Below the pieces are notes generated by a model. The model saw nothing but the letters and a program-made list of their open reading frames with translations. It ran no database searches and was not told the origin of the DNA. Below are positions 41,551-49,618 of a stretch of DNA of 64,000 bases, one piece after another. The stretch spans positions 1,674,001 through 1,738,000 of the forward strand of contig NZ_CP090371.1 of NCBI RefSeq assembly GCF_021431925.1. The letters are read 5' to 3'. The stretch is from Halobaculum sp. CBA1158. GTDB taxonomy: Archaea > Halobacteriota > Halobacteria > Halobacteriales > Haloferacaceae. A program made the position numbers and the translations under genes. Position 1 is the first letter of the stretch. Every line of letters starts with the position of its first letter.

Positions 41551-42555
41551 ATGACGGAGACGCTGTTCCTGACGAGCGCCGAGGTCGACGGGCTCGCGAC
41601 GCCCGCCGAGTACGTCGAGGCGGTCCGCGAGGGGTACCGCCAGGTCGGCGAGGGCGCGCCGGCGGAGCCGCGGACGAAGCTCACGAACGCCGAGCCGCCG
41701 GGGATGCTCACCACCTACGCGGCCGTGCTACCCGAGACGGGCGCGATGGGCGGGTACATGTACGCCGCCGGCTTCGGCGAGCGCGACGCGTGGTTCGCGA
41801 CGCCGCTGTTCGACGCGGAGTCGGGCGAGCCGCTGGCGCTGCTCGACGGGGCGTCGATGAACCCCTACAAGACGGGCGCGGCCGGCGCGGTCGGGGTCGA
41901 CGCGCTCGCCCGCGAGGACGCCGCCTCGGTGGCCGTGATCGGCTCGGGCGCGCAGGCCCGGGGACAGCTCAAGGCCACCGCGACCGTGCGCGACCTCGAG
42001 ACCGTCTGGGTGTACTCCCCGACGAAGGAGAACCGAGAGGCGTTCGCCGGCGACCTGAACCCGCAGCTCGACGCCTCCGTCGCCGCAGTCGCCAGCGCCG
42101 CCGCCGCCGTCGAGGACGCCGACGTCGTCATCACGGCGACGACCGCGAGCGAACCGGTGTTCGACGGCGACCTCCTGGAGCCGGGCACACACGTCACCGC
42201 GATGGGGCAGTACGACGCCGACAAGCGCGAACTCGACCACGCGACCATCGAGCGGTCGGTGTACGTTCCGGACCTGCGCGCCCGCGCCGACCCCGGCGGC
42301 GACGCCGGGTCGTTCCTCTCGGCGCTGGAGGCTGGCGTCGTCGACGAGGACCACATCCACGCGGAACTGGGCGAGGTCGTCGCCGGCGCGGCCCCGGGGC
42401 GCGAGGACGACGACGACGTCACCGTCTTCGACTCCGGAGGCACCGGTATCGAGACGGTCGCGTCGGCGTACATGCTGTACGAGCGGGCCCGCGAGGCGGA
42501 CCTCGGACAGTCGATCGACTTCGCGCCGGCGAGCGAGGCGCTGACCGGCGAGTAG
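41551..42555 (+). CDS. Ornithine cyclodeaminase / mu-crystallin family protein
   Basis: The protein has 334 residues and the OCD fold. The N-terminal substrate part holds R-T-K-L (about 42-45), M-Y-A-A-G-F and M-N-P-Y-K-T-G-A-A-G (about 106-115). The NAD(P)-binding motif is V-I-G-S-G-A-Q-A-R near 129-137, followed by V-V-I-T-A-T-T-A near 191-198. Members are ornithine cyclodeaminase, alanine dehydrogenase or ketimine reductases; the sequence alone does not tell which. It diverges from MscS (99 bases). Confidence 0.87.
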   Translation: MTETLFLTSAEVDGLATPAEYVEAVREGYRQVGEGAPAEPRTKLTNAEPPGMLTTYAAVLPETGAMGGYMYAAGFGERDAWFATPLFDAESGEPLALLDGASMNPYKTGAAGAVGVDALAREDAASVAVIGSGAQARGQLKATATVRDLETVWVYSPTKENREAFAGDLNPQLDASVAAVASAAAAVEDADVVITATTASEPVFDGDLLEPGTHVTAMGQYDADKRELDHATIERSVYVPDLRARADPGGDAGSFLSALEAGVVDEDHIHAELGEVVAGAAPGREDDDDVTVFDSGGTGIETVASAYMLYERAREADLGQSIDFAPASEALTGE

Positions 42556-44004: not shown

Positions 44005-44703
44005 TCAGAGCGTGCGGCGCATCCGAACGTGCTCGATCCCGTCCTCGTCGAAGGTGCCGACCCCGTCGTCGACGGCGTAGCCGAGTCCCTCGTAGAACCC
44101 CGCCGCCCGCGTCTGCGCGTGGAGGACGACCGCCGAGAGGTCGCGGTCGCGAGCGCGCGCCTCCGCGGCGCGCATCACGCGCGCCCCCCAGCCCTCGCCC
44201 CGACGCTCGCGGGCGACGGCCACGCGTTCGATCTTCGCGACCCGACCGTCGCCGTCGTCGCTCGCGGCGTCGCCCGCGCGGTACTCGTCGTCGCCCGCGC
44301 GGTCCTCGGCGTCGCCGACGGAGGTGCCGCCATCGCCGTAATCGCCGCCTCCGGCGTATTCCTCGGCGTCGACGGCGCGGAGGCGGGCGACTGCGACCGG
44401 GTCGCCCGGGGGGTCGTCCCCGTCCCTGTTGTCATCGTCCGCGTTTCCGCCGTCCGCGTCGTCTCCGTCTGCGTCGTCTCTCCCGGCGTCGCGAACGAGC
44501 AGGTGATCGACCGACGACTCGAGTGGGTCGGCGTCGTGTTCGTCGAGTTCCAGTTCCTCGGGGACGCCCTGTTCGTCGACGAAGACGGCCATGCGGAGCG
44601 CGACGACCGCCTCCCAATCGGTCTGGGTGTCGACGACCGTGACGGAGTAGTCGCCGTCGGACGGCCGACCCGGCCCAGCCTCGTCGGAGTTCCGCTCGGT
44701 CAT
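44005..44703 (-). CDS. GNAT acetyltransferase with acidic insertions
   Basis: The protein has 232 residues. The GNAT fold starts with A-L-R-M-A-V-F-V-D-E-Q-G-V-P near 35-48, and the CoA loop is R-R-G-E-G-W-G-A-R-V-M near 164-174, followed by L-H-A-Q-T-R-A-A-G-F-Y-E-G-L-G-Y near 191-206. Two Asp/Gly insertions (about 72-100 and 115-150) interrupt the fold and are not usual in the family. It is 2 bases from pelota, as the last gene of a leftward cluster. It could acetylate a small molecule or a ribosomal/translation protein; the substrate is unknown. Confidence 0.86.
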   Translation of the reverse strand: MTERNSDEAGPGRPSDGDYSVTVVDTQTDWEAVVALRMAVFVDEQGVPEELELDEHDADPLESSVDHLLVRDAGRDDADGDDADGGNADDDNRDGDDPPGDPVAVARLRAVDAEEYAGGGDYGDGGTSVGDAEDRAGDDEYRAGDAASDDGDGRVAKIERVAVARERRGEGWGARVMRAAEARARDRDLSAVVLHAQTRAAGFYEGLGYAVDDGVGTFDEDGIEHVRMRRTL

Positions 44704-44705
44704 CG

Positions 44706-45773
44706 TTACTGGAGTCGGTACCGCAGGAGCGCGGCGACGCCCCCCAGGTTCCGGAGCTGTTGGCCCGGCGCGAACTCCCCGGAGAAGACGACCACGTCGC
44801 CGCCCTTCTGCTCGGCCGTCTCGATCAGGTCGTTCACGTCCACGTCCCAGTCGCCCTCGCCTTGGCGCTCGGCCCGGAGTCGGTCGTCGACGATGAGCAG
44901 CGTCTCGATCGCGCCGAACTCGGCGGCCTCCATCGTCTCATCGACGCCGTAGGTCGCCTTCGCGCCCTCGGCGATGCGCTCGGTGAGCTCGTCGATCAGC
45001 TCCGCCTCGCGGGCGATGCGCGTCTCGCGCTGCACGTCGGCGACGGCACCGCGCTTGAGCACCTCGTGGACGCCGCGGTCGCCGGCGGCGGAGGTGTCGA
45101 CGACGCTGATCCGGTCGGGCAGGTCCCGGTACTCCTCGGCGATGTAGTCGCGGGCGTCGTTCTTCGTGAACCCCGGACCCGCGAGGATCACGGCCTCGGG
45201 GTCGAGGTGCGACAGCGCCGATCCCAGCTCCTCGAACAGTTCCTCGCGGGGGCGGGCGAAGTCGCCCTTTCCGGTCGGCTTGGTGAAGCTGGCGTACTCC
45301 TCGGTGCCGTACTGCTGGACCGTGTGAACGTACGCCGCTCCCTCCTCGACGGTCGCGATCGCCACGTCGGGGGCGTCGGTGGCCTCCTCGGCCTCCTCGA
45401 TGCGCTCGATCTGGTCGGGCTTGAACCGCTTCTCGATGACCAGGTCGGTGCGCTCCTCGACGTTGATCGTGTGGTGGTGACCGATCTCGTCCTCGCGCGA
45501 GCAGTCGACGATCAGGCCGCCCACGCGCAGTCGGTTCGCGAAGCGGGCGAACTCCACGTCCTCCACCTCGATGGTGACGCGCATGTGCTCGCGCTCGCCG
45601 CCTTTGTCCCTGAGTTGGTCGTCGTCGCGGGTGACCCGCCGGGTCGTGTCGGCCTCGACGTGGTCGCCCGGTTCGAGGACGTGCGAGAGGTGCCACAGGT
45701 CGTCCGTCGTCTCGGGGACGACCGTGAGGCGCTCGCGGCCCTCCTCGCCGCGGCCGCGCGAGTCGATTCGCAT
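44706..45773 (-). CDS. pelA: Pelota (Dom34), mRNA surveillance and ribosome rescue factor
   Basis: The protein has 355 residues from ATG 45773 (M-R-I-D-S-R-G), nine codons inside a longer frame. The three eRF1-like domains are visible: an Sm-like N domain (1-125; D-D-L-W-H-L, R-V-T), a central domain (about 130-260; I-L-A-G-P-G-F-T-K), and a C-terminal domain (about 265-355; L-L-I-V-D-D, V-F-S-G-E). It lacks the GGQ motif, as expected. With aABCE1 it splits stalled ribosomes. It lies downstream of rqcH through two DUF4013 genes in the same direction. Confidence 0.95.
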
Positions 45774-45884
45774 ACCCGCGACTCCGACCGGCGCGTACAA
45801 AGGCCCACCGAGACGATCGGCGGCGAGCCCGCACCGTCGACCGGGAGGGCGAGAGAACCCGGATGACCGGCGGCAAGAAGTCGC

Positions 45885-46598
45885 CTACAGCGTTTCTGTC
45901 GTCATCCGGGCGTCGCCGTCGTCCTCGCGGTCGACCCCGCCGTCGCCTCCGCCGTGGACGCCGGTCGCCTCGGCGAACCCGCGGCCGAAGCAGTAGTAGG
46001 TGACGACCTGGCCGTAGAACAGGAGCGGGATGCCGACGAGGAGGAACGCGAGCGGCGAGGCGACCGTGTTGATCACGCCCCCGAGCACGACGCCCAGCAG
46101 GACGCCGACGAGGTAGCGCGAGGAGAACGCCGCCTCGCGGATCGCCGCGAGGTCGAACGCCGCGCCGATCGACCCCTCCAGCGCGAAGTTCGTTATCGCG
46201 GCCGGCAGGACGTAGCCGACGACGATGGCGACGAGCGACGCGACGAGCAGGACCAACACGCCGAGGATCCCGAATGCCGCGAGACCGGCGTCGCTCCCCG
46301 TGAGTCCGCCCAGTCCGATGACGGCCGCGCCGACCACGAAGGGTATGGTGATCCCGACCCCGTAGATCACGGAGACCACGAGCAGTTTCAGTCCGTCCAC
46401 GAGCAGGTCGCCCCAGTCGGTGAACGACGGCGCTGCCGCGTCGCCGTTCGCCGACGAACGCAGCACGCGGAGGAGATATCCCTGGAGGACGAACGCCGGA
46501 AGGATCAGGAAGCTGAACACCAGCAACAGTCCGCCGATCACGAGCGTCGCGAGTCGGTCGTCGCTGTCGAGCGGATACCGGAGCGCGTCCTCTAGCAT
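45885..46598 (-). CDS. DUF4013 integral membrane protein (first paralogue)
   Basis: The protein has 237 residues from ATG 46598 (M-L-E-D-A-L-R-Y-P), the usual DUF4013 start. Five or six long hydrophobic segments are seen (about 17-40, 62-90, 95-125, 135-160, 175-205). The motif G-Y-L-L-R-V-L-R is conserved with the next gene. Function unknown. It lies between rqcH and pelA on the same strand, 25 bases after the second DUF4013 gene and 111 bases before pelA. Confidence 0.83.
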   Translation of the reverse strand: MLEDALRYPLDSDDRLATLVIGGLLLVFSFLILPAFVLQGYLLRVLRSSANGDAAAPSFTDWGDLLVDGLKLLVVSVIYGVGITIPFVVGAAVIGLGGLTGSDAGLAAFGILGVLVLLVASLVAIVVGYVLPAAITNFALEGSIGAAFDLAAIREAAFSSRYLVGVLLGVVLGGVINTVASPLAFLLVGIPLLFYGQVVTYYCFGRGFAEATGVHGGGDGGVDREDDGDARMTTETL

Positions 46599-46623
46599 AC
46601 CCGACCGGTCAGTTGCTCGGTGG

Positions 46624-47334
46624 TTAACGGTTTCCCCCGACGCCGCGGCTCCAGACGGCCGCGGCGGCGACCTCCAGGTAGAACAGCCCGAAGAAGCCGA
46701 CGAGGCTCGCGACCCTGTTTCCCGATCCGGCGAGGACCGTCCCCAGCAACAGCAGCGTCGCGCCGACGGTCCACGCGTAGAAGTACCGCCCAGTCGAGAC
46801 GGTCCCTCGGAGTTGCCGAGGCGACAGCGCGTCGCGAACCCGCGAGACCGTCCCGTCGGCCGGGTCGCCGCGGGCGTACGCCGCCAACACGGCCGGGAGC
46901 GGGTAGACCGTCGCGACCGCGAACAGCAGGGTAGCTGTCCCGCCGACGAGCGTCGCGCCGTACCCCAGCGGCGTCGTCGGGTCGATCCCCCCGCCGGCGG
47001 CACCGCCGATCGCGCCGGCGACGGTGACGACGAGGACGACCGTCGGGACCAGGAGGAACCCGACGACGAGCGCGGAGCCGACGAGGCCGTCGCGGACGAT
47101 CGCCGCCGGCGATCGAAACGATGGGAGCCGCCCCGGGTCGCTGGCGTCGCCGGCGACGCCGAGCACGCGCACGAGGTAGCCGACGACCGCGACGAGGGGG
47201 AACAGCGGCAGGGGAACGACCGGCCATGACACGGCAGCCAGCAGGTGGAGTCCGCCGCCGACCGCCAGCGCCTCGGCGGCCGCGCCGCGGTCTGCGGGGT
47301 CGCCGAGCGGGAACCGGATCGCCTCGGGGAGCAC
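46624..47334 (-). CDS. DUF4013 integral membrane protein (second paralogue)
   Basis: The protein has 236 residues with the same start type (M-L-P-E-A-I-R-F-P-L) and G-Y-L-V-R-V-L as the neighbour, but diverged elsewhere. About six hydrophobic segments are visible. It starts 3 bases after the rqcH stop, so is probably co-transcribed with it. The two DUF4013 genes look like an old tandem duplication. Function unknown. Confidence 0.83.
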   Translation of the reverse strand: MLPEAIRFPLGDPADRGAAAEALAVGGGLHLLAAVSWPVVPLPLFPLVAVVGYLVRVLGVAGDASDPGRLPSFRSPAAIVRDGLVGSALVVGFLLVPTVVLVVTVAGAIGGAAGGGIDPTTPLGYGATLVGGTATLLFAVATVYPLPAVLAAYARGDPADGTVSRVRDALSPRQLRGTVSTGRYFYAWTVGATLLLLGTVLAGSGNRVASLVGFFGLFYLEVAAAAVWSRGVGGNR

Positions 47335-47337
47335 GGC

Positions 47338-49464
47338 TTACCCCTCGTGCACGTCGCTCTCGCCCGGCGGAAGGAACTCCTGTATCAGGTCCGCCGAGGC
47401 GACCTTGCGGACGAACGTGTCGTCGGCGAATCGGTCCTTCAGGATTCGGTAGCACTTCATCGCCGCGTCGTTCTGCGCGAACCGTCCCGGCGTGAGCCGG
47501 ACGGTCGTCGCCGCCCGCGGCTCGACGGCCGACGGCGGCCCGCCGACGACCCTGGTCTCGGGTTCGGCCTGGACGCCGACGGCGACCTCCGCGGGCACGT
47601 CCCGGTAGTAGTCGCGGTCGCCGCGGATGACGAACCCGCCCTTCTCGATGTACTCGCCGGACTCGGGCGTCTTCGACACCTGATCGGGCGTGACGACGTA
47701 CGCGTCGCCCGCGCCGCGGCCGTCCTTCCACACCGACGAGTACGAGACGGCGAACTGGGCGGCTTCCTCGCGCGAGGACTCCGGGATCGTCACGTCGCGG
47801 GCGGCCTCCGACGGGTCGGTCGCCTTGATCAGGGTGACCGGGCCGCCGTGGGCCTGCGCGTGGCAGAACAGGTCGTCGCCCTCCATGTAGTTCTTCACGA
47901 GTTCCTCGTTCTGATCGGCGTTTCGCCCGCCGATCACGAGGAACCCGTCGCTCGTCTCGAACCACCGGAAGCGGTCGTACCAGTAGTCGTGCCGCTTGAC
48001 CGGGATCGACGACCGGGAGAGCCAGTCGGTCTCCGCGTCCTCGTCGCCGTCGGCGTCCGCCTCTCCGGCGTCGTCGGTCTCGCCGTCGCCGGCCGAGGAG
48101 TCGCCGTCTCCCTCCGCCCACTCCTCCTTTCGGCGTTTGACCGCTTCCAGTTCCTCGCGGGTGTTCTCGATCGCCTCGAGCGCGCCCTCTTTTTTCCCCT
48201 CGATGCGCTTCGCCTCCGTGTAGAGTCGGTCGGCGTTCTTCTCGGGGCCGGTCAGGGCGTCGAGCGTGACGACCGTCCCGTCGAGGTCGACCTCGACGGT
48301 GGCCGCGGAGCCGTCGACGCCCCGCACCGCCTCGGCCTCGGGGATGCCCCGGTCTGCGCCCTCGAGGAACGTCTCGTCGATCTCCTCCCAGCCGCGGCCC
48401 TCCTCGCGGGCGGCCTGGATCGTCGAGAGCACGTCGTCGACGAGGTCGTAGTGGGCGTAGACGGCCTCGGCCTTCTCGCGCTCCGCCTCCGCGCGCTCCT
48501 CGAAGTCGTCGATGGCCCCCTCCTGCTGGTCGATGATTCGCTGCTTCTTGGCGATCTCCGCCTCGAAGTCGGGGGCGTCGTCGACCTCCTCGTCCTCGGT
48601 GAGGTCGAGCCGGTGGAAGTACTCGTCGAGCGCGGCGTTGAAGTCGTCGTACGCCTCCGACTCGACGCCCTCGCGCTCCTCCAGCGGGAACGGCGTCACG
48701 TCGACGACCGCGTCGTCCTCCAGGTACACCCGAGGGTCGAGGTCGCCCGCGCGGAGCCGCTCGCCCATGCGCTCGATCGCGTCGTGGATCGGTCGGTACT
48801 GCTCCTCGTCGGCGTCGGCGATGTCGAGGGTCTTCTCGACGCCCGCGCGGGTGCAGAACTCCTCGGCGTAGAGGCCGCCCATGTTCAACTGCGTCGCGAG
48901 CGTTCGCACCACGTCGGTGTCGGACTCCTCCATCCGGGCCTCGAACACCTCGTAGCGCACGTCGAAGGGGTTCACCCGCGACTGCGGGAACTCGTACCGG
49001 CTGCCCGGCGCGACCGTCCGCGACTTCAGGCGGACCGTCTCGAGGCTGCGCTGGACCTCGCCGGTGTCGTCGAGGACGGCGACGTTCCCCTCGCCGAACA
49101 GCTCCGCGACGACGCGCGTGTTCTCGTCCGGGCGCTCGAAGTCGAAGGTGAGGATCCGGTCGAACTCGAACTGGGCTGCGTCGGCGAGTTCGCCGCCCGC
49201 CAGCCGCGAGCGGAGGGTCTTCGCGAACTCCGGGGGTCGACCGGGCGCGTCGGGGACGCGTGCGGGGTCGGCGACGTGACATCGCTTCACGTCGCCGGTC
49301 TCGACGAGGAGTTCGACCCGCCCGCGGTCGTAGTCGCGGAGCTTGAAGCGGACGAGGTCGTCGCCGTAGAGGTAGACCTTGTCCACCTTCGCGCCCTCGT
49401 ACCGAGAGAGCTCCCCGGCGAGGGCCGCGAGGTCGACGCTCGTCATCTCTGTTTTCGGGTCCAT
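47338..49464 (-). CDS. rqcH: RqcH/NEMF/Rqc2 homologue (NFACT, ribosome-associated quality control)
   Basis: The protein has 708 residues from ATG 49464; a longer frame upstream only reads a degenerate repeat. The N-terminal NFACT-N domain opens with M-T-S-V-D-L-A-A-L-A-G-E-L (about 7-19), and helix-hairpin and coiled-coil regions lie at about 240-430. The acidic linker (about 445-475) is followed by NFACT-R, starting W-F-x-T-S-D-G-F-L-V-I-G-G-R-N-A near 500-515. RqcH binds stalled large subunits and adds C-terminal tails (alanine in bacteria) to incomplete peptides. It is first in the cluster with DUF4013, DUF4013, pelA and the acetyltransferase. Confidence 0.94.
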   Translation of the reverse strand: MDPKTEMTSVDLAALAGELSRYEGAKVDKVYLYGDDLVRFKLRDYDRGRVELLVETGDVKRCHVADPARVPDAPGRPPEFAKTLRSRLAGGELADAAQFEFDRILTFDFERPDENTRVVAELFGEGNVAVLDDTGEVQRSLETVRLKSRTVAPGSRYEFPQSRVNPFDVRYEVFEARMEESDTDVVRTLATQLNMGGLYAEEFCTRAGVEKTLDIADADEEQYRPIHDAIERMGERLRAGDLDPRVYLEDDAVVDVTPFPLEEREGVESEAYDDFNAALDEYFHRLDLTEDEEVDDAPDFEAEIAKKQRIIDQQEGAIDDFEERAEAEREKAEAVYAHYDLVDDVLSTIQAAREEGRGWEEIDETFLEGADRGIPEAEAVRGVDGSAATVEVDLDGTVVTLDALTGPEKNADRLYTEAKRIEGKKEGALEAIENTREELEAVKRRKEEWAEGDGDSSAGDGETDDAGEADADGDEDAETDWLSRSSIPVKRHDYWYDRFRWFETSDGFLVIGGRNADQNEELVKNYMEGDDLFCHAQAHGGPVTLIKATDPSEAARDVTIPESSREEAAQFAVSYSSVWKDGRGAGDAYVVTPDQVSKTPESGEYIEKGGFVIRGDRDYYRDVPAEVAVGVQAEPETRVVGGPPSAVEPRAATTVRLTPGRFAQNDAAMKCYRILKDRFADDTFVRKVASADLIQEFLPPGESDVHEG

Positions 49465-49533
49465 CTGGTTGAGTCCGGGTAGTCGGGGCGGGTGTTTGGG
49501 CGTTGCGGGATCCGCACGGATCCCGAGGAATCC

Positions 49534-49618
49534 ACGGCGAACCCACGACGAGTCCACGACGAGTCCACGCAAATCCACGACGAGTCCGCGCAGATCCACG
49601 GCGTACCCACGACGAACC
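49534..49618. repeat. Degenerate 10-11-bp tandem repeats upstream of rqcH
   Basis: About seven units of ACGACGAGTCC and variants (exact copies at 49545-49555, 49556-49566 and 49577-49587). It lies in the gap between rqcH and the MFS gene, reads in frame as L-R-G-L-V-V-D on the minus strand, and is probably slippage or a local repeat, not coding. Confidence 0.7.

Follow-up and report, generated by a model that had tools for sequence, protein, structure and literature searches.

A haloarchaeal rqcH-pelota locus carrying an ordered array of DUF4013 membrane-protein genes

Organization of the locus

This report concerns a locus of ribosome-rescue genes in Halobaculum sp. CBA1158, contained in a 64,000-nucleotide stretch of contig NZ_CP090371.1 (here called the window). 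The minus strand carries all five genes of interest. In order, they are rqcH (window 47338..49464, 708 amino acids), two genes for membrane proteins of the DUF4013 family, DUF4013-A (46624..47334, 236 amino acids, GTG start) and DUF4013-B (45885..46598, 237 amino acids), pelota (44706..45773, 355 amino acids) and a GNAT acetyltransferase gene (44005..44703, 232 amino acids). The intergenic gaps, from rqcH to the acetyltransferase, are 3, 25, 111 and 2 bp. This layout of five genes on one strand, as well as the family assignments, agrees exactly with the original prediction, which had been made from the sequence of the window. The locus can safely be described as a haloarchaeal version derived from an ancient pairing of rqcH with pelota. 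The DUF4013 genes are a haloarchaeal addition to this pair, forming an array of one to three genes in fixed order.

RqcH belongs to the archaeal RqcH/Rqc2/NEMF family. It scores 806 bits against the RqcH_arch model NF041120 (cut-off 400), matching positions 1-644 of 645, and contains both the NFACT-N (PF05833) and NFACT-R (PF05670) domains. When aligned to solved structures (7as8, 8aaf and 9gy4), its FDRIL sequence, with D102 and R103, matches the DRI of NEMF, Rqc2 and Bacillus subtilis RqcH, in which D97 and R98 are the tRNA-contacting pair, and its NFACT-R domain aligns to the same three proteins. The DR motif selects tRNA-Ala in B. subtilis RqcH (PMC8373112).

The pelota protein (aPelota/Dom34) scores 293 bits against TIGR00111, well over the equivalog cut-off of 177.65, and 74 bits against the aRF1 model, below its cut-off of 234.7. 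All three eRF1-type domains (eRF1_1, eRF1_2 and eRF1_3) are matched, the solved archaeal pelota 3oby is hit with 267 bits, and Halobaculum pelota sequences are 89-93% identical to that of the window. Pelota has a role in splitting ribosomes (PMC8012679). By homology, pelota and RqcH would act in sequence in archaea.

Both DUF4013 proteins pass the curated Pfam cut-off for PF13197 (26.9 bits), DUF4013-A with 46.7 bits and DUF4013-B with 115 bits. They are the only two genes in this genome that do so.

Conservation of the rqcH-pelota pair

The positions of rqcH and pelota were compared in 145 haloarchaeal genomes from 58 genera and ten families, with the coordinates of both genes always taken from the same genome. 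Every one of these genomes has both genes. In 93 of them, representing 42 genera and nine families, rqcH is encoded no more than 5 kb upstream of pelota and in the same direction. Codirectional distances are below 1 kb in 27 genomes, 1-5 kb in 66 and 5-15 kb in eight; in the remaining genomes the two genes are far apart or on separate contigs. No other close arrangement occurs among the 145 genomes, and close pairs are always codirectional with rqcH upstream. The pair is fully split in the group of genomes that matches Halorubrum.

Outside the class, rqcH and pelota are directly adjacent in 36 of 74 genomes from the same phylum, spanning 12 families; the distance between the two genes ranges from -1 to 201 bp. 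Four genomes from one further family have the two genes 1.5-1.9 kb apart, and four families (f14, f15, f23 and f25) have them apart. Because the genes also adjoin one another in other classes of the phylum, the pair predates the haloarchaea. The proposal that their proximity reflects a link in ribosome quality control is thus borne out by conservation of the two genes as codirectional neighbors within and beyond the class, and a functional pairing is the natural reading.

Two other genes occur near pelota. An ornithine cyclodeaminase/alanine dehydrogenase-like gene, at about window 41580-42555 on the plus strand, is a common convergent neighbor in family f1, where it lies directly downstream of pelota in 15 loci. 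In other families this place is occupied by an RNase Z-like gene. The names of both were judged from sequence.

DUF4013 genes between rqcH and pelota

To call genes in 100 haloarchaeal pelota loci, codon bias was learned from the rqcH and pelota genes that these loci contain; the resulting caller reproduced the window genes and made no pelota call in three loci. In the called loci, 58 of 59 DUF4013 genes in the gap between rqcH and pelota are codirectional with the pair. The other genes in this gap are on mixed strands (36 plus, 52 minus), and family f4 has mostly opposite-strand genes in the gap and no DUF4013. These other genes are heterogeneous and often oppositely oriented, which rules them out as conserved partners.

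A count made with the Pfam model leads to the same picture. Of the 150 top-scoring DUF4013 hits across the 145 genomes, 56 are located in the rqcH-pelota gap and two just ahead of a pelota gene that has split off. These 58 locus copies, of which 57 are codirectional, compare with about 0.35 expected in a target of 8 kb, an excess of about 160-fold. The specific association of DUF4013 with the rqcH-pelota locus can be taken as secure. Together with the recurrence of the gene pair in 42 haloarchaeal genera and in 13 families outside the class, this excess refutes the idea that unrelated housekeeping genes came together by chance in a single genome, an explanation that retains virtually no probability.

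In Halorubrum, DUF4013 stays next to pelota after the pair has split. The Halorubrum proteins (loci L010-L036) are encoded directly upstream of pelota and are 340-415 amino acids long; the ones that were inspected have C-terminal extensions with many acidic residues. Two loci of family f9 (L160 and L161) have an extra DUF4013 gene upstream of rqcH in addition to two between rqcH and pelota.

DUF4013 types and predicted structure

A maximum-likelihood tree, built quickly from 80 DUF4013 proteins of pelota loci and 45 from elsewhere (125 in total), sorts most locus copies into three groups, each composed of locus copies only. The A-type comprises 35 sequences from six families, with a support of 91 in the Shimodaira-Hasegawa-like approximate likelihood ratio test (SH-aLRT), and includes DUF4013-A of the window. 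The P-type, named for its position next to pelota, comprises 13 sequences (SH-aLRT 83) and includes DUF4013-B, and the R-type has 15 sequences (support 69). The deep branches of the tree are weakly supported, and low-scoring copies from elsewhere in the genomes were left out of the sample. Going from rqcH towards pelota, the types follow one another as R, A, P without exception in all 17 loci where at least two copies could be typed.

Genome-wide, 27 of the best 28 matches to an A-type profile are in the locus; the profile itself contained 20 of these 28 sequences, and seven of the eight others are also in the locus. Three genomes with a split pair keep an A-type copy next to one of the two genes. 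The types are likely to be confined to the locus, judging from these comparisons.

An AlphaFold2 model of DUF4013-B, with a mean predicted local distance difference test score of 92.7 and a predicted template modeling score of 0.84, shows about six long helices; its N-terminal helix is amphipathic and its tail disordered. DUF4013 is thus confidently predicted to be a six-helix membrane bundle. Its conserved residues include an N-terminal DD-WxxT motif, a GY in the second helix and a YxxPA motif, and no catalytic signature is evident among them.

Probable promoters and transcription units

Positions upstream of the start codons of rqcH and pelota show a sharp peak in the frequency of A or T. 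For 100 pelota genes, this peak is at -27 to -25 (0.74, 0.87 and 0.77), and for 70 rqcH genes it is at -28 to -25 (0.64, 0.87, 0.86 and 0.66). The profile also shows a peak at -10. This pattern is that expected of haloarchaeal leaderless promoters. DUF4013 genes do not have the peak, with values of 0.46-0.51 at -27 and -26.

Comparison of four Halobaculum genomes locates the probable elements in the window. The gap between DUF4013-B and pelota varies from 62 to 111 bp and has diverged except for a block of 25 bp, GTCTCGGTGGGCCTTTGTACGCGCC (45790..45814, minus strand), in which 24 of 25 positions are identical. This probable pelota promoter spans -41 to -17 and has TTTGTA at -28 to -23, a spacing of the leaderless type. 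A probable rqcH promoter element, CCCGCAACGCCCAAACACCCGCC (49487..49509, minus strand), at -45 to -23, is near-identical in the four genomes while its flanks diverge, and it has no classic TATA box. It is likely that two transcripts are made here, rqcH-DUF4013A-DUF4013B and pelota-GNAT, because rqcH and pelota each keep a promoter-like element of their own. More generally, these two genes probably retain separate, conserved, near-leaderless promoters.

Two features of the upstream regions are worth recording. A pair of A/T bases at -39/-38 is found in 64% of pelota genes and 31% of rqcH genes, compared with 14-15% of control genes, in counts uncorrected for phylogeny. This pair suggests an upstream promoter element or factor-binding element shared by the two genes, in which case they could be co-regulated. 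Farther upstream of rqcH, at window 49529-49615, are imperfect ATCCACGACGAGTCCACG-like tandem repeats with periods of 11, 21 and 32. No counterpart of this sequence is present at that place in the three other Halobaculum genomes.

The locus is probably not one operon. The idea that all five genes, the acetyltransferase included, form one co-transcribed ribosome quality control unit derives from their shared strand and short gaps, and the five-gene order is kept in the four Halobaculum genomes. However, promoter-like blocks are conserved before both rqcH and pelota, and that before pelota is the sole part of its gap to be conserved. In addition, one large family has opposite-strand genes filling the space that separates rqcH from pelota, the pair has come apart in Halorubrum, and the acetyltransferase gene follows pelota directly only in Halobaculum. 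A single five-gene operon is therefore quite improbable. Separate promoters and loss of the gene order in other genera had both been named in advance as signs against a joint unit. The first is indicated for rqcH and pelota, but the placement of rqcH, pelota and DUF4013 is conserved across genera, and the acetyltransferase falls outside the conserved unit.

The GNAT gene

The acetyltransferase (PF13673, Acetyltransf_10, 44.8 bits, and PF00583) is encoded 2 bp after pelota in Halobaculum genomes. Its restriction to this genus as a direct neighbor led to its rejection as a conserved quality-control component. In Haloferax (loci L052-L057 and L070), a related GNAT gene, at about position 3.8-4.7 kb of these loci on the minus strand, sits a short way upstream of rqcH and faces the other way, so members of the family are found at the locus in more than one arrangement.

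The window protein does carry two acidic, low-complexity loops, as first reported. These inserts, which had been called unusual, are absent from four Halobaculum-type relatives and coincide with tandem repeats in the DNA, so they are low-complexity expansions of an ordinary kind. A functional novelty was rejected, since the loops are recent and species-specific.

A possible role for DUF4013 in ribosome rescue

The locus bears on how archaea complete quality control once a ribosome has been split, and on the partners with which RqcH works in them. From the families present, aPelota with GTP-bound aEF1A and ABCE1 would split the stalled ribosome. RqcH would then bind the 50S subunit that still holds peptidyl-tRNA, and its DR motif would recruit tRNA for the addition of a C-terminal tail, a predicted reaction that would mark the chain for proteolysis. 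Linkage of the genes for the splitting and tailing factors across much of the phylum supports one pathway for pelota and RqcH in archaea.

DUF4013 proteins are good candidates for a membrane part of ribosome rescue because their genes are placed between rqcH and pelota. Genomic context suggests that they could assist RqcH as membrane partners produced alongside it, the most plausible task being to dock or clear, at the membrane, 50S-nascent-chain complexes of stalled membrane and exported proteins. The whole explanation, comprising an ancient rqcH-pelota pair, separate promoters and DUF4013 proteins as accessory membrane partners of RqcH, is given a probability of roughly 0.4. Its last element is argued from context and stands nearly even with passive inheritance.

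Passive inheritance would make the DUF4013 genes passengers whose functions, such as transport or maintenance of the envelope, are unrelated to rescue. They would have come into the locus of an early haloarchaeon a single time, been duplicated in tandem and been passed on with no role in rescue. One early insertion followed by later losses could explain all locus copies with no function needed, and the same gap is filled in other families by unrelated genes. What passengers would not lead one to expect is the nearly uniform orientation of DUF4013 genes amid the mixed strands of other gap genes, the fixed R-A-P order, the retention of DUF4013 next to one of the two genes once the pair has split, and a subfamily almost confined to the locus. 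This alternative is a serious one, if somewhat short of even odds.

Several results weigh against DUF4013 as a partner of RqcH. As many as 88 of the best 150 DUF4013 hits are far from the rqcH-pelota locus. No recognizable DUF4013 is present in 29 of the 145 haloarchaea, all of which keep rqcH and pelota, so DUF4013 is dispensable for quality control. These copies elsewhere and absences also favor passengers. Outside the class, DUF4013 is present but is never beside pelota. Searches of solved structures returned nothing with an E value under 0.26 when using a DUF4013 profile and nothing under 2.4 when using Foldseek with the model, and none of them tied DUF4013 by its fold to insertases, proteases or ribosome-binding proteins.

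The one VIA-align match of DUF4013 to stand out is PNS1 (9f63, choline transporter-like), with a Z score of 9.2 over 208 residues at 9% identity, when chance helical bundles reach about 14. The next VIA-align match has a Z score of 5.7, and Foldseek gives the choline transporter-like/PNS1 fold an E value of 4. Assignment of DUF4013 to an insertase or other known fold is not supported, given these empty searches and a PNS1 match below the noise of helical bundles.

The original prediction had suggested that the two proteins may place rescue at the membrane. Some such membrane role is the favored conjecture; the family consists of membrane proteins but has no fold match to insertases or proteases. 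A stronger form of partnership with RqcH is that DUF4013 proteins, made with RqcH, form a membrane arm devoted to ribosome-associated quality control in archaea. They would act on membrane-stalled 50S-nascent-chain complexes and possibly supply the missing partner of RqcH for stalls of membrane proteins. We consider this form unlikely. A cooperating factor yet to be discovered is expected in archaea and eukaryotes (PMC8373112). Being ordered, codirectional and repeated, the DUF4013 genes provide a concrete list of candidate partners that can be tested in the tractable genus Haloferax.

Our search of open papers found no description of the archaeal rqcH-pelota neighborhood; DUF4013 was mentioned there in only one paper found, on an unrelated subject. 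Priority for the adjacency of rqcH and pelota itself is not claimed, as the open literature alone was covered.

Comparison with known systems

Among the closest described parallels is quality control by B. subtilis RqcH (YloA), a member of the same family with NFACT-N, NFACT-R and the aligned DR motif. The archaeal locus differs from this bacterial system in that its splitting factor is pelota, which has no bacterial counterpart. It also has no gene for RqcP (Hsp15), and membrane-protein genes are interposed.

In eukaryotes, Dom34/Pelota, Hbs1 and ABCE1 act before Rqc2/NEMF. Window pelota scores 107 bits against human pelota, and RqcH scores 106 bits against NEMF. Unlike in the eukaryotic pathway, archaeal rqcH and pelota are chromosomal neighbors. 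We know of no Listerin step in archaea and, to our knowledge, DUF4013 has no counterpart in the described eukaryotic pathway.

Within Pfam, the two window proteins belong to DUF4013 as its locus-linked A and P types. The rqcH-pelota pairs in other classes of the phylum share the gene order and orientation of the window. They differ in having no DUF4013 gene in between, and their gaps of -1 to about 200 bp would allow a true operon.

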